The translations under genes and the position numbers were made by a program. This document shows positions 38,509 to 44,485 of a stretch of DNA of 64,000 nt, piece after piece. The DNA comes from an uncultured Helicobacteraceae bacterium (GTDB lineage: Bacteria > Campylobacterota > Campylobacteria > Campylobacterales > Helicobacteraceae), in NCBI GenBank assembly GCA_944323885.1, contig CALUUD010000002.1, positions 310,001 through 374,000 on the forward strand. Reading direction: 5' to 3'. The notes beneath the pieces are model-generated. The model was not told the origin of the DNA, ran no database searches, and worked only from the letters and a program-made list of their open reading frames with translations. Within the stretch, counting starts at the first letter, position 1, and the number at the start of each line of letters is the position of its first letter.

Positions 38509-38922
38509 TTACTTTGCAATCAACACTGGAATTGGAGAAGCATTAATAAATAAATTTTGATGAGAATCAAATATTCTATGTAAAATTGATTGTTCACTTT
38601 CACCAATAACTAATAAATCATAATCAATTGCATATTTCATTAAAATATCTGTCGCATTACCTTCTTTAATCATCTTTTTTACTTTTATTTGATGTTGTAA
38701 AAACTCATATTCAAATTCCTTAAATAGATCGTCAGATTTTATATTCTCTTTAATATTGGTATTGTAATCATAAATAGCACCTTCTGCATATACCATAACT
38801 TCTGAAATAATATATAATAGTGTAATTTCAAGTTCACTTACACCTTTAAATAAATTAATAACACAATTCATAGCTTTTCTGCACTCTTTAGTATCACTAA
38901 CACCAAATAGAATCTTCTTCAT
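38509..38922 (-). CDS. Universal stress protein family
   Basis: A 137 aa single-domain UspA-type protein. The N-terminal Ile-Leu-Phe-Gly-Val-Ser-Asp strand and the C-terminal half with Asp-Leu-Leu-Val-Ile-Gly-Glu-Ser-Glu-Gln-Ser and Pro-Ile-Pro-Val-Leu-Ile-Ala match the family. The ATP-binding Gly-x2-Gly-x9-Gly-Ser motif is not intact (Gly-Glu-Ser-Glu instead), so nucleotide binding is uncertain. It sits 2 bp after the moeA stop and is presumably co-transcribed. Confidence 0.82.
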   Translation of the reverse strand: MKKILFGVSDTKECRKAMNCVINLFKGVSELEITLLYIISEVMVYAEGAIYDYNTNIKENIKSDDLFKEFEYEFLQHQIKVKKMIKEGNATDILMKYAIDYDLLVIGESEQSILHRIFDSHQNLFINASPIPVLIAK

Positions 38923-38924
38923 TG

Positions 38925-40166
38925 CTATATTTCCTCAAGATAGTTAAGCATATTATTGATATTATCAAAACAATATTGAGTATATAAAATAATTTTTATT
39001 TTTGAATCCTTTTTCACCATATCTTTATTATTAATTATTGCAAATGAATTACTTTTTAGCAATGGTGCAATCTGTGCACCCTGATATTTTCCATTATTAT
39101 ATGCTAGAAATTCCCCATTTTCATATTTACCTAATATAATATGAGATGTATTATTTGTGACTTTAAAATCACTTTTATTTATTGCTGTAATTGGTTTTAA
39201 ATATAAATTATTACCTCTATTAAATTTTTGTATTAATATAGGTAAATGCAACATACTTTGAATGAAAGCAGCTATTGGATTTCCAGGCAAAGAAAGTACA
39301 AGTTTGTTATTTTTTGTAGATAGTATTACGGGTCGACCAGGCTTTATATTTATAGAATCTAATAAAATATTAACCCCAATATCGTTTAACACTTCATGCA
39401 TATAGTCTTTTTCACCTACACTTACTCCACCACTTGTTATTATTATGTCATATTTACTTATTGATTCTTGAATCTTGTTTTTTATTATTTCCTTATTATC
39501 ACTTAATATGCCCCCATATTTTATCTTACAATTTAATGTGGTAAAGATAGATCTTATAAGATACGAATTAATATCATAAATTTGATTTTCATTTAACTTT
39601 TTATTTATGTCTGTTATTTCATTTCCAGTGCTAAAAATAATTATTTTTACTTTCTTTTTTACTTTTATCTTATTTATCCCTTGTGATGCAAGCAATGCTA
39701 TATGCTGTGCTTTAAGTTTTGTCCCATTGTATATAATTGTTTCATCACTTTTATAATCTTCTCCTTTAAACTTTATACATTGGTTTATATTTGGAGAAAC
39801 TTCAAGTATTAGTTTATTATTTACTACTTTTGTATGTTCTTTTGGTATAACTGCTTGTGTATTAGCAGGAATTCTTGCTCCAGTTGTAACTTGTATTGCT
39901 TCATTATTATTTATATTTGTATTTTTCTTATCACCTGCAAACACTGCATCTTTTATGATGTATTCATTAAAGCCAAGCTTTATTGCATATCCATCCATTG
40001 CAGAATTATTGTATCTTGGAATATTATATTTTGATTTTATATCTTTACTTGAGATTCTATTTAAAGCATTTTTTAATTTTACTTTTTTATTTTTTTTAGG
40101 TTTTATTTTCAATGTCTCTAAAAGATTAAAAAAATCATCCAAATTTGCCATTTTAAGCGTATTCAT
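38925..40166 (-). CDS. moeA: Molybdopterin molybdenumtransferase
   Basis: A 413 aa MoeA, which inserts molybdate into adenylated molybdopterin. Features are Arg-Tyr-Asn-Asn-Ser-Ala-Met-Asp-Gly-Tyr-Ala (about 45-55), Thr-Gly-Ala-Arg-Ile-Pro (about 91), Ser-Thr-Gly-Asn-Glu-Ile (about 175), Thr-Ser-Gly-Gly-Val-Ser-Val-Gly-Glu-Lys-Asp (about 245-255) and Leu-Pro-Gly-Asn-Pro (about 294). It lies in the same operon as selA and selB. Formate dehydrogenase needs both Mo/W-molybdopterin and selenocysteine, so the grouping makes sense. Confidence 0.95.
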   Translation of the reverse strand: MNTLKMANLDDFFNLLETLKIKPKKNKKVKLKNALNRISSKDIKSKYNIPRYNNSAMDGYAIKLGFNEYIIKDAVFAGDKKNTNINNNEAIQVTTGARIPANTQAVIPKEHTKVVNNKLILEVSPNINQCIKFKGEDYKSDETIIYNGTKLKAQHIALLASQGINKIKVKKKVKIIIFSTGNEITDINKKLNENQIYDINSYLIRSIFTTLNCKIKYGGILSDNKEIIKNKIQESISKYDIIITSGGVSVGEKDYMHEVLNDIGVNILLDSINIKPGRPVILSTKNNKLVLSLPGNPIAAFIQSMLHLPILIQKFNRGNNLYLKPITAINKSDFKVTNNTSHIILGKYENGEFLAYNNGKYQGAQIAPLLKSNSFAIINNKDMVKKDSKIKIILYTQYCFDNINNMLNYLEEI

Positions 40167-40178
40167 TAAAACTCTCCT

Positions 40179-41150
40179 TTAGAAGTCCATCAATCTTATC
40201 ATTTTATAGCTTTCTGCAATTTTTGATACAACAATATCTATATCATCAATTTTATCAAAAGTGATAGCACATAATTCTCTAGACTTTACTTCTCCAAAAC
40301 CAAGTGACATTAATGTAAAAGATGGTTTAATAAATCCAAGATAGCATTCTTGTGAACTTTGTATATAAATATCATCTAAATATAGATTCTGTATCAAGTT
40401 CCTTGTGTTTATATGTTTTAAACGCAAAGGAAGTGTATTGTTGGCATATTTTTTTGCAAATAAGTCAACATCATCCCCAAGTTCTTCTTTTAGCTTTTTG
40501 TATATTATTGCATTTGTAGAATCTGTTGCCACTTTGTACTCTAATGCTGTGTAGAATGCTTCACTTATTCCTTTTTTATATAGGTTTGAAGTGTATTGCT
40601 TATCACTTATTATTAATCCTATTCCATTAATAAGACCAAATGTAACACCATTTATAAAATATATATGAGATTTTGGTAATTCCATATTCAATCTAAGTGA
40701 ATAACTAATATCAAGTGCTAATGTTGCATTATTAATTTCATTAATAATATTAATACTAAAAATATCTTCATTGATTACTGGTAATATTATTAATGTGTCA
40801 GAATTTGAACTTTTATCAATTTTATCAATATCTAAATCTTGCAAAGGAATAATATATGATTTTATAACATCCTTTAATAAAAAAATAGCTTGCCTGATTT
40901 CATAATGTAATGATGCTGTATAATATATCTCTTTAAAATTTAAAAAGAATTCTATAAATCCAGAGCTAGAAAAATTAAAAGGTAGAGCATATTTTTTTTG
41001 AAATTTTTGTCTTAGTTTCTCTCTAAAATATTCATCTTTGGATTCTTTTATAGCAATAGAATTAAAATTAAAATTAGGAATTATATGCTTTATTGCTTCT
41101 TTATTTATACTTGGATTTTGTAAAAAATCAAGGTGAATTTCTTTTTTCAT
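40179..41150 (-). CDS. Degenerate class V aminotransferase-like protein in the sel operon
   Basis: A 323 aa protein with the outline of a fold-type I class V aminotransferase (NifS/SerC group). There is a Ser-Ser-Ser-Gly-Phe substrate-loop equivalent (about 61-65), then Leu-Ala-Leu-Asp-Ile-Ser-Tyr-Ser (about 148) as in the Asp that holds the PLP ring. The strand and glycine turn that should carry the PLP lysine read Phe-Ile-Asn-Gly-Val-Thr-Phe-Gly (about 168-175), with no Lys. The C-terminal Phe-Asp-Lys-Ile-Asp-Asp-Ile-Asp resembles the family ending. It lies 4 bp after selB and 12 bp before moeA. Possible roles are selenium or sulfur handling, or a scaffold. The family call is moderate and function unknown. 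Confidence 0.6.
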   Translation of the reverse strand: MKKEIHLDFLQNPSINKEAIKHIIPNFNFNSIAIKESKDEYFREKLRQKFQKKYALPFNFSSSGFIEFFLNFKEIYYTASLHYEIRQAIFLLKDVIKSYIIPLQDLDIDKIDKSSNSDTLIILPVINEDIFSINIINEINNATLALDISYSLRLNMELPKSHIYFINGVTFGLINGIGLIISDKQYTSNLYKKGISEAFYTALEYKVATDSTNAIIYKKLKEELGDDVDLFAKKYANNTLPLRLKHINTRNLIQNLYLDDIYIQSSQECYLGFIKPSFTLMSLGFGEVKSRELCAITFDKIDDIDIVVSKIAESYKMIRLMDF

Positions 41151-41154
41151 TTTT

Positions 41155-42978
41155 CTACCTTAACATTCGTTTATTATCTTCTTTTATTATATCACCATAA
41201 TTGTCTAGATAATCTAAATAAGCAATCATATATTTTCTACTTATATCATAATATTTTTTAAATATATTAACATCAACATATCCTTCATTTTTTATTATCT
41301 CTCTTAGAGAATGCATTATTTTATTTAACTCTGTTGTTAGTATAAAAAGATTGTGACTTAATCGTATTACCTTTTTTGTTTTTGTAAGATTTTTAAATAC
41401 ATCATCACCAAGTTTATTATCTATACCCAAAATATCATATATATTATATGGTGCAAGTGGTGTAATACCACCATTTTGTAATTCTTTTATTATTTTATCT
41501 TTTGTGTATACAAAAATATCATCAATATTGCATTTAGAGCTAGTATATAAGTTTGGTGCAGATTTTTTAATTAAACTACTAGATTCTAATTCTTTTAAAA
41601 CTTCTTTATTAAATAAAATTGAACTCCATTTCATTTGGTTTTTAATACTATTTGCACTAAAAATCGCATTTTTATTTTTTTGTATTAAATTTAATATTGC
41701 ATCTTTTATTATTTTTTTAGCTTCTAGGTTATATATGACAAATTCCTCTTTATCTATAAATATATTATTAATTTTTGCTGCAATTTCTATGCTTTCATTT
41801 GATGTTAGGTTAAATCTTTGTAACGATTGAATAAGACCAAAGCCGCATTTATGAACATTTGTTAATACTCTAAATACATTAATAAAATCATTATTATATA
41901 AGTATTTTAAATATTGTATTTTTTGTATTTTTTTCATCGGATCTGTTATTGGATTTAGTATCATTCCACCACCTACTGTTTTAGCATTATCTCTTAAAAC
42001 AAATCTTTCCTTAAAGATACTAAATATTATCTCATCTAACTTTATTGTTGCAAATATTTTATTATCTACTTCTTCTAATATATTTATTGTTGCATTAAGT
42101 TTTTTAGAACCAATGAAAAAAACAACATTTTGGTTATTTGTAATTTTTGTTATAGGAAATATAACACAATCAATTTTATCAAATCCTCTTAAAATGCCTT
42201 TTTTGCTTATAAGCATACCTTTCTTTATGTATTGGTTAGGTATGTTGATATTTAATGCAATTCTTTGAGCTATAGTAGCAGTATTAATTTCATTATCATG
42301 ATTTTGTATATTTTTTATTATTGCTTCTTTGTTTATGTCATATATAAAAATTTTTTCATTTTTTGTTATTTGGCCACTTAAAATTGTCCCTGTTACAACA
42401 CTTCCAAATCCTTTTTTACTAAATACTCTATCAATATAATACCTAAAAAAATTTCCACTATTTTTTTTGTTAGATTCTAATTTACTTAGTATTAACTTTG
42501 CATTATCAATTAAGTTTTGATTGTATATTGAAAATTCACTTATCTTTATTAAATCTAGCTCTAATTTTTTAAGTAGATTTTGTATATCATTCTTTACTTC
42601 AATTATTCTATTTTTATCCACTAAATCAGTTTTGTTAATAAATACTAATACCTTATTTATACCTAATAATTTTGCAATATTTAGGTGTTCTATACTTTGC
42701 TCCATAATACCATCATTAGCTGCAATAATAAGGCATAATATATCTATACCAAATGCACCAGAAATCATATTTTTTACCAGCTTTTCATGTCCTGGTACAT
42801 CAATAAAAGATATATTATTGTTACCTAAAATAATGTTTGAAAAACTAATATCAATAGTCATTCCTCTTTCTTTTTCATCGCTTCTTAAATCACCATCATA
42901 ATTATTTATAGCTTTAATAAATGAGGTTTTGCCATGATCTATATGACCTGCAAGGCCTATAATTATATTATTCATCAT
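41155..42978 (-). CDS. selB: Selenocysteine-specific elongation factor SelB
   Basis: A 607 aa translation GTPase that delivers Sec-tRNA to UGA codons marked by a SECIS hairpin. The G domain has Gly-His-Ile-Asp-His-Gly-Lys-Thr (about 11-18), Asp-Val-Pro-Gly-His-Glu (about 59) and Asn-Lys-Thr-Asp-Leu (about 113). Domains II/III follow, with Val-Val-Thr-Gly-Thr (about 194), and the C-terminal third is made of winged-helix repeats that bind the SECIS element. Length is close to E. coli SelB (614). It overlaps selA by 11 bp. Either of two adjacent ATGs may be the start. Confidence 0.95.
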   Translation of the reverse strand: MMNNIIIGLAGHIDHGKTSFIKAINNYDGDLRSDEKERGMTIDISFSNIILGNNNISFIDVPGHEKLVKNMISGAFGIDILCLIIAANDGIMEQSIEHLNIAKLLGINKVLVFINKTDLVDKNRIIEVKNDIQNLLKKLELDLIKISEFSIYNQNLIDNAKLILSKLESNKKNSGNFFRYYIDRVFSKKGFGSVVTGTILSGQITKNEKIFIYDINKEAIIKNIQNHDNEINTATIAQRIALNINIPNQYIKKGMLISKKGILRGFDKIDCVIFPITKITNNQNVVFFIGSKKLNATINILEEVDNKIFATIKLDEIIFSIFKERFVLRDNAKTVGGGMILNPITDPMKKIQKIQYLKYLYNNDFINVFRVLTNVHKCGFGLIQSLQRFNLTSNESIEIAAKINNIFIDKEEFVIYNLEAKKIIKDAILNLIQKNKNAIFSANSIKNQMKWSSILFNKEVLKELESSSLIKKSAPNLYTSSKCNIDDIFVYTKDKIIKELQNGGITPLAPYNIYDILGIDNKLGDDVFKNLTKTKKVIRLSHNLFILTTELNKIMHSLREIIKNEGYVDVNIFKKYYDISRKYMIAYLDYLDNYGDIIKEDNKRMLR

Positions 42979-44314
42979 TATTTCTTTTATTGTTTATATT
43001 ACTTAATGTATTTATTAATATTTCTACTTCATCATCTTGAATAGTTCTTACATCTAATGTCACTTTATTATTGTAGATTCTAGAAATAATTAGATTTTCT
43101 CTTAATATTTTTTCTAACTTTGATGCCTTAATATCTTTCATTTGTAATGATATGCCAAATGATTTAAATGTTTTATTTGGCAGACTTCCACCACCAGCTA
43201 GACTATCTACCTCTATAACTTGTGGATTTAAAAATATATCAATTCTATCACATATTGATACTGCCTTTTGATATAGAATACAAGTATCCTTATTTAGCAT
43301 ATCTATTGTTGGTATTTCAGATAAATTGTTTGTTATATATCGATGCAATGTAGCTTGAAGCATTAATATAGATATTTTATCAACCCTTAATGCTCTAAGG
43401 AGGTGATTTTGTTTTAATTGGTTAATTAAATCTTTTTTTCCAAGTATTATTCCAGCCTGTATTGATCCAAATAGTTTATCACCACTAAAGCTAATTAATG
43501 ATGGTGGATTTTTACATATATCAAGCAAAGAAGGTTCATTGCAATCTATACCATTTATATAGCCACTTCCTAAATCATAATAATCAATTAAATTATTTTC
43601 ATGACACAAATTAGTAATATCTTGAATATCGACTTCACTGCTAAATCCTAGAATCTCAAAATTTGATTTATGTACTTTCATTATAATTTTTGATTTTTCA
43701 TTAATTGCATTTTTATAATCACTTAAATGAGTTTTATTTGTTGTGCCCACTTCTATGAGTTTTGCTCCCGCACTTTTCATAACTTCGGGGATTCTAAAAT
43801 TACCACCAATTTCTACCAACTCACCGCGTGATATGATTACTTCATGATCTTTTGCAAATGTATTTAATATAAGCAATACTGCCGCAGCATTATTATTTAC
43901 AATCAATGCGTCTTCTACATCAAAAATAGCTTGTAACATTTTTGTTAGATGATTATATCTATCACCTCTACTGCCATTTTCTATGTCGTATTCTAAATTG
44001 TTATAATGACTTAAAAGTGGAATAACTTCATTTAATAAGTTTTTATGAAAGATACTTCTTCCTAGATTTGTTTGCAAAACTACCCCAGTAGCATTGATTA
44101 TTGGCTTTAGAGTATTTGATGTTATACTTTTATATTCATTTAATATTTCACTTTCTAAGTTTTCTATATTGTATTTATCTCCATTGATTATTTTATTTTT
44201 AACTTTATTTATTTTATTTTTTATTACATTTTTTAGTATATTTTTATTTGTGTTGTCAAATATTTTATTTTTTAAAATCTTTTCTATTTGTGGAATTTTT
44301 CTTAAGTCTTGCAT
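42968..44314 (-). CDS. selA: L-seryl-tRNA(Sec) selenium transferase
   Basis: A 448 aa PLP enzyme that converts Ser-tRNA(Sec) to Sec-tRNA(Sec). The PLP lysine lies in Phe-Ser-Gly-Asp-Lys-Leu-Phe-Gly (about 277-284), matching the E. coli Ser-Gly-Asp-Lys-Leu-Leu-Gly motif. Asn-Ala-Thr-Gly-Val-Val-Leu-Gln-Thr-Asn-Leu-Gly-Arg (about 75-87) is also characteristic. It is the first gene of the minus-strand operon, with AAGG upstream of the ATG. tRNA-Sec is divergent, about 75 bp upstream. Confidence 0.96.
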   Translation of the reverse strand: MQDLRKIPQIEKILKNKIFDNTNKNILKNVIKNKINKVKNKIINGDKYNIENLESEILNEYKSITSNTLKPIINATGVVLQTNLGRSIFHKNLLNEVIPLLSHYNNLEYDIENGSRGDRYNHLTKMLQAIFDVEDALIVNNNAAAVLLILNTFAKDHEVIISRGELVEIGGNFRIPEVMKSAGAKLIEVGTTNKTHLSDYKNAINEKSKIIMKVHKSNFEILGFSSEVDIQDITNLCHENNLIDYYDLGSGYINGIDCNEPSLLDICKNPPSLISFSGDKLFGSIQAGIILGKKDLINQLKQNHLLRALRVDKISILMLQATLHRYITNNLSEIPTIDMLNKDTCILYQKAVSICDRIDIFLNPQVIEVDSLAGGGSLPNKTFKSFGISLQMKDIKASKLEKILRENLIISRIYNNKVTLDVRTIQDDEVEILINTLSNINNKRNNDE

Positions 44315-44386: not shown

Positions 44387-44485
44387 TGGAAGGCTTGCAA
44401 TTCTGGTGAATGCCACAGACTTCAAATCTGATGTGTGGCTAAGTGTTTAGTCGCTGGGGAGTTCGATTCTCTCGCCTTCTCACCA
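44387..44485 (+). tRNA. selC: tRNA-Sec (anticodon TCA)
   Basis: A long, about 99-nt tRNA with anticodon loop CTTCAAA, giving anticodon TCA for UGA. GGTGA in the D arm matches the E. coli tRNA-Sec D loop. A long variable arm has stem GGCTAA/TTAGTC. The T arm is GGGAG-TTCGATT-CTCTC, and CCA is encoded. With an 8-bp acceptor plus A73-CCA, the 3' strand is GCCTTCTC and the 5' strand TGGAAGGC, leaving the outermost T-C unpaired and a G-T next. A 5' end at 44388 is an alternative. It lies divergent from selA, and the neighbours confirm identity. Confidence 0.93.

Follow-up and report, generated by a model that had tools for sequence, protein, structure and literature searches.

How formate dehydrogenases (FDHs) obtain the sulfur of their Mo cofactor is still a matter of debate. 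In E. coli, the Mo=S ligand of FDH gets its sulfur from the desulfurase IscS, which acts together with FdhD; IscS docks on FdhD, and FdhD in turn binds bis-MGD, the cofactor to which the sulfur is delivered (PMC6239281, PMC12140954). The desulfurase partner in R. capsulatus is unknown, and the CXXC motif of FdhD is not conserved (PMC6239281). A different use of the same fold is described for A. fulgidus IscS, in which the PLP lysine is replaced by Asp and the active-site Cys is kept; because of this replacement the protein is without desulfurase activity, and its Cys acts as an Fe-S ligand (PMC7585200).

Here we analyzed a lysine-less IscS/NifS-like protein, hereafter X, that is encoded next to the selenocysteine (Sec) genes of a Campylobacterales genome. 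Like A. fulgidus IscS (4hvk, 4r5f), which is the best Foldseek match to both of our X models, X has naturally lost the PLP lysine and kept the Cys. Unlike that protein, whose partner is IscU in Fe-S assembly, X is linked to fdhD and selB and not to iscU; the two are ~15% identical, X is ~50 residues shorter, and in the lysine column X proteins mostly have Thr, Ser, or Asn rather than Asp. X shares its fold and Cys loop with E. coli IscS, but the latter is a housekeeping PLP enzyme, whereas X lacks the lysine, appears to be dedicated, and is found alongside a separate NifS.

H. pylori NifS (5wt2; TIGR03403, nifS_epsilon) is the group I desulfurase of the same bacteria and gives a profile match to the C-terminal part of X; it has a full PLP site, whereas X forms a separate family far below the curated cut-offs. 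What SelA and SerC have in common with X is the broad PLP fold type I. TusA/YedF-like proteins are cysteine-based sulfur or selenium carriers that lie near fdh genes in the X-negative Campylobacterales genomes examined. Their fold is unrelated to that of X.

Results

Genomic locus of X

The window, by which we mean the whole 64,000-nucleotide stretch of DNA analyzed, belongs to a 1.45 Mb genome of the order Campylobacterales (G000). An earlier note on this DNA had described a 323 aa open reading frame at 40179-41150 between selB and moeA; the coordinates were right, and the frame is on the minus strand. The genes of the locus and the codons discussed below are as follows.

38509..38922, minus strand: universal stress protein gene (usp), last gene of the run (Pfam Usp)
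38925..40166, minus strand: moeA, one of two copies in the genome, the other lying elsewhere (Pfam MoeA_N and MoCF_biosynth)
40179..41150, minus strand: X, lysine-less IscS/NifS-like protein of 323 aa with an ATG start (open reading frame; IscS fold; PDB profile match; 22 homologues in related genomes)
40344..40346, minus strand: Cys269 codon of X, equivalent to the catalytic persulfide Cys of IscS/NifS (invariant in aligned members; aligns with the NifS catalytic Cys)
40641..40643, minus strand: Thr170 codon of X, at the PLP-lysine position (alignments with Lys-bearing relatives and with the genome's own NifS)
40905..40907, minus strand: His82 codon of X, in the column of the NifS PLP-stacking His (alignment; 25 of the 29 Helicobacteraceae-type members have this His)
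41155..42978, minus strand: selB (TIGR00475, 273 bits, above the cut-off)
42968..44314, minus strand: selA (TIGR00474, 510 bits)
44388..44481, plus strand: selC, the tRNA-Sec gene, which lies head to head with selA and makes the local Sec cluster complete (ARAGORN)

The protein-coding genes run in the order selA-selB-X-moeA-usp, all on the minus strand, with 4 bp between selB and X and 12 bp between X and moeA. Against its nearest relative, X has a dN/dS of ~0.16, and the neighboring genes give 0.18 (selA), 0.17 (selB), and 0.20 (moeA). These ratios show purifying selection on X, and a pseudogene was rejected on this basis.

Elsewhere in the genome, on a contig other than that of X, lies an fdh operon in which fdhA is followed by fdhB, fdhC, and fdhD, without X. 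Its fdhA (G000:C1, locus L142 3465-6281) contains an in-frame TGA (Sec), which divides it into open reading frames of 183 and 747 aa. An in-frame TGA is also found in selD (G000:C2:220098-221006, L053), and SelD is therefore probably itself a selenoprotein. The genome encodes a separate NifS. A second desulfurase, SufS/CsdA-like and 440 aa long, is encoded outside the window (L047 1459-2781, G000:C2).

Fold of X

As a single sequence, X gave no significant match in Pfam or NCBIfam; a weak Pfam match to Peptidase_S49 (E 0.055, under the cut-off) was dismissed as chance. None of the curated family cut-offs was passed: window X had no match at all to these families, and the Arcobacteraceae members reached at best E 1e-8 to 1e-15 with the IscS/NifS models, far under the cut-offs. 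A profile built from 23 X relatives, however, matched E. coli IscS best when compared with the PDB (E=3.5e-9), and a profile of the Arcobacteraceae proteins gave E=1.2e-11, again to IscS.

The AlphaFold model of window X (pLDDT 85, pTM 0.85; second model, pTM 0.89) was predicted to contain a fold type I PLP domain and a small C-terminal domain, and Foldseek returned A. fulgidus IscS (4r5f/4hvk, E ~2e-17) at the top, followed by E. coli IscS and human NFS1, with TM scores to IscS of ~0.77 and ~0.73 for the two models. The outline of a class V protein of the desulfurase group, as first proposed, was thus correct, and the profile, AlphaFold, and Foldseek results allow it to be narrowed to group I (IscS/NifS). 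Comparison with NifS, SerC, and SelA had been suggested: IscS/NifS are nearest, and SelA and SerC, absent from the best 50 Foldseek matches listed and from the PDB sequence-profile matches, were rejected as nearest folds.

Distribution and forms of X

When 299 Campylobacterales genomes were searched with an X profile, 51 proved to be strong carriers, distributed over four genome families. These are f1, the window's own family, taken as Helicobacteraceae from its content; f9, the Arcobacteraceae, identified by named relatives; f16, which includes Sulfuricurvum (Sulfurimonas-type relatives); and f14. In the X tree, f1 forms one clade, and the lysine state changes twice. The f14 form is short (225-248 aa): its Cys domain is whole, but little is left of the PLP domain, and the lysine region is gone.

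A scan of genome contigs with a single X protein found no relatives, and a search with the Arcobacteraceae X alignment returned 45 loci, nearly all from Campylobacterota. One match carried the label of a Pseudomonadaceae MAG, but is 97% identical to Arcobacter and was probably mis-binned. Two Chlamydiae MAG contigs (L201, L202) matched the Cys-loop part of X weakly and over a short length (E 3e-8 and 1e-7).

Active site of X

Aligned to the NifS of the same genome and to Lys-bearing relatives, window X has Thr170 in the PLP-lysine column, and the nearest other lysine of the segment, K184, is 14 residues off; the absence of a PLP lysine from this segment, as originally noted, is borne out. None of the 29 Helicobacteraceae-type members has Lys in this column, which mostly holds Ser, Asn, or Thr, as opposed to K in 22/22 relatives from Arcobacteraceae and f16, where K166 and Cys271 are both invariant. 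The PLP phosphate-binding Thr column, which is Phe in window X, reads Phe, Leu, or Trp. The PLP-stacking His is kept in 25/29 f1 members and lost in f9 and f16, and an Asp is located near the PLP N1 position. Decay of the PLP site therefore differs by branch, with the Lys gone in f1, the His gone in f9, and the region gone in f14, but the cysteine is kept in every branch. Compared with the active site of a group I desulfurase, X has the catalytic Cys, but it lacks the Schiff-base lysine and does not retain the full set of residues that bind the PLP phosphate and ring.

We considered whether X might still use PLP, either as an enzyme whose chemistry has changed or by binding the cofactor with no Schiff base, and so have low desulfurase or lyase activity. 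The retained His82 in most Helicobacteraceae, the Asp near N1, and the lysine of the Arcobacteraceae and f16 members are in line with this idea. The uniform loss of Lys in the Helicobacteraceae-type members and the Phe, Leu, or Trp at the phosphate position argue against it, as do the short f14 form and the A. fulgidus precedent, where the same loss leaves no desulfurase activity (PMC7585200), and we consider such an enzyme highly improbable.

The catalytic-Cys column, a feature that the earlier note had missed, is Cys in all 58 aligned relatives of X (Cys269 in window X). The surrounding loop, NGQECLFGFxKPSFVLQxMGY, is the best-conserved stretch of the protein, and residues 270-273 are disordered in the AlphaFold model (pLDDT <50), as for a mobile Cys loop. 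These features also bear on the idea of a structural or regulatory role for X, as a subunit that would heterodimerize with NifS or cap FdhD and so steer the desulfurase or the cofactor while carrying no sulfur. Lysine-less desulfurase relatives do serve as docking or ligand proteins, since the Cys of A. fulgidus IscS is a ligand to IscU (PMC7585200), and FdhD and IscS are in direct contact in E. coli (PMC6239281). However, an invariant Cys and loop, preserved even in the short f14 form, argue for Cys chemistry, and a purely structural role seems rather improbable to us.

Gene neighborhoods

We compared the X loci across families, with the identities of FdhD and FdhA at these loci confirmed by Pfam. 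Nearly all f1 loci read selA-selB-X-(moeA). The order differs chiefly in genus g12, whose X gene is solitary, and in G010, which reads selA-selB-fdhD-modE-X-moeA. Linkage of X to selB is far commoner in Helicobacteraceae than linkage to fdhD. The f9 and f16 loci read fdhA-fdhB-fdhC-fdhD-(ORF)-modE-X-moeA-tupAB-ABC, or have X straight after fdhD, and those of f14 read fdhD-X-moeA. In several loci the fdhD and X frames overlap by 4-14 nt. The same operon in X-negative families is fdhD-modE-moeA, with modE followed directly by moeA. Some Arcobacteraceae have a 145 aa open reading frame that separates fdhD from modE (L045 6454-6891).

It is hardly credible that X is a functionless relic kept in the operon by chance. 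Its lysine is gone and its presence is variable, as might be expected of a relic, but the reading frame is intact in all genomes that carry X, its dN/dS is similar to that of its neighbors, and its linkage is conserved in four families.

Co-occurrence with FdhD and the Sec machinery

Among the 299 genomes, X and FdhD occur together in 47, and X occurs without FdhD in four (Fisher p 8e-21, kinship ignored). Two of these four are real exceptions (G026 and G286), and in the other two (G148 and G128) the assembly is broken beside X. SelB accompanies X in 49 genomes and is missing from two X carriers, kinship again being ignored. In f16, X is confined to exactly the two genomes that have both FdhD and SelB. 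X is absent from 55/299 genomes despite the presence of SelB and FdhD, and is therefore not universally needed; the X-negative, FdhD-positive families likewise contradict a rule that every FDH needs X.

The presence of SelB in 49/51 X-positive genomes, together with the 22 examined X loci at which selB is the direct neighbor, is compatible with a selenium carrier. The Cys of X would hold a perselenide and supply SelD with the Se for selenophosphate, much as IscS does in E. coli, and the position in the sel operon of Helicobacteraceae would thereby be explained. SelD is found in nearly all X-positive genomes, including G267, G026, and G286. Of these, G026 and G286 (genus g12; L039, L111) have an intact X with SelA, SelB, and SelD and neither FdhD nor a Sec-FDH; X in G026 still looks constrained (dN/dS 0.14 vs G298). 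However, most f16, f4, f6, and f7 genomes that have SelD and no FDH are X-negative, and a rule that X goes with SelD is broken by many such SelD-only genomes. Genus g6 genomes (G243, G309; L219, L220) encode SelABD and a Sec-FDH, but neither FdhD was detected there nor X. G267 has X, FdhD, and a Cys-type FdhA, without SelA, with no SelB above the cut-off, and with a SelD match that has no in-frame TGA. This genome breaks the otherwise strong rule that X goes with SelB, for which the trees are also less consistent than for FdhD, and the stricter rule that X occurs only with SelA/SelB. Independence of X from selAB is thus seen only in part, 49 of the 51 X-positive genomes having SelB. Outside f1, moreover, X sits in the fdh operon.

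X follows one FdhD lineage

We then compared the presence of X with phylogenies of its candidate partners. On a quick ML tree of 34 FdhD sequences from 10 genome families, X presence matches one FdhD lineage exactly. A single change of X status is needed, on a branch with 100% support (total length ~1.3 changes per site), as compared with three changes on the FdhA tree and two each on the FdhB and SelB trees. The two FdhD types can be distinguished by eye, one with EKTLxSGC[CG]xGV and the other with GVxxSGCG[RK]. The trees were midpoint-rooted, so gain and loss of X are indistinguishable on them. G258 gives the clearest case: its FdhA and FdhB, encoded on one contig, are nested in X-positive Arcobacteraceae, but its FdhD belongs with those of X-negative genomes, and modE and moeA have no X between them. 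Contamination of this genome (6%) bears on its SelB contig and not on its single fdh contig. The idea that X compensates for a missing second Cys in the CXXC of FdhD was dropped, as X-positive and X-negative FdhDs are both without the second Cys.

SelB predicted X less well than FdhD did, and the selenium reading is weakened. A role centered on SelA, tRNA charging, or selenium, as proposed in the earlier note, is not supported, given G267, the FdhD-less genomes that have SelAB and a Sec-FDH and no X, and the match of X to FdhD type rather than SelB type. We regard the selenium carrier as unlikely overall, and retain it among the alternatives on two grounds, the place of X in the sel operon of f1 and the two g12 genomes. 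An FdhD partnership, another of the original guesses, gained ground from the fdh-operon linkage and from the way X tracks FdhD type.

Discussion

A link between X and FdhD-dependent FDH maturation is quite likely on the above evidence, and the evidence supports the idea of a dead, desulfurase-like protein that belongs specifically to the Sec/Mo formate dehydrogenase pathway. We reasoned that X is probably a sulfur-handing helper in building FDH, and not part of selenocysteine synthesis itself, because it has lost the lysine, has kept the sulfur-carrying Cys, and co-occurs with one FdhD type. Our preferred reading, to which we assign a probability of roughly one half, is that X is an IscS/NifS-derived pseudo-desulfurase, a persulfide relay that would load sulfur for a divergent FdhD, as its dedicated partner, during FDH maturation.

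In this relay, the housekeeping NifS, which is encoded in the window's genome, would form a persulfide from cysteine, as is established for its family. The sulfur would then move to Cys269 of X. X would dock on FdhD and pass the sulfur to the FdhD-held bis-MGD, giving the Mo=S ligand that FDH requires. We propose loading by NifS and handover at FdhD because X has the IscS docking fold and the Cys, together with a genetic tie to FdhD. In Helicobacteraceae the X gene is beside selA-selB, and the reason may be that Sec enters the same enzyme. The odds of the persulfide-relay mechanism itself are, in our estimate, about even. Against it, X and the FdhD type could have been inherited together as cargo, with no physical contact between the two proteins.

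That no function had been described for such a protein, as the earlier note held, is true in part: A. fulgidus IscS is a natural lysine-less precedent (PMC7585200), but we found no lysine-less desulfurase tied to FdhD or Sec described in the open-access literature. The keyword-matched passages of a study of Sec evolution in these bacteria do not mention the X gene (PMC4607533). A lysine-less desulfurase is, then, already known, and what seems new is a family tied to FdhD and Sec operons.

For annotation, X accounts for a nameless gene that many Helicobacteraceae carry in their Sec operons. If one FdhD type is followed by a dedicated partner that works by cysteine alone, the pair would offer a clean system in which docking and handover are separated from cysteine desulfuration. 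The family is also an uncommon case in which different stages of cofactor-site loss are preserved in related bacterial families. Tentatively, the function of IscS may have been split here, with the FdhD of one Campylobacterota lineage coming to depend on its own IscS-derived, PLP-dead docking half that hands over sulfur; the Lys form, the Lys-less form, and the short f14 form could then represent steps from enzyme to carrier.
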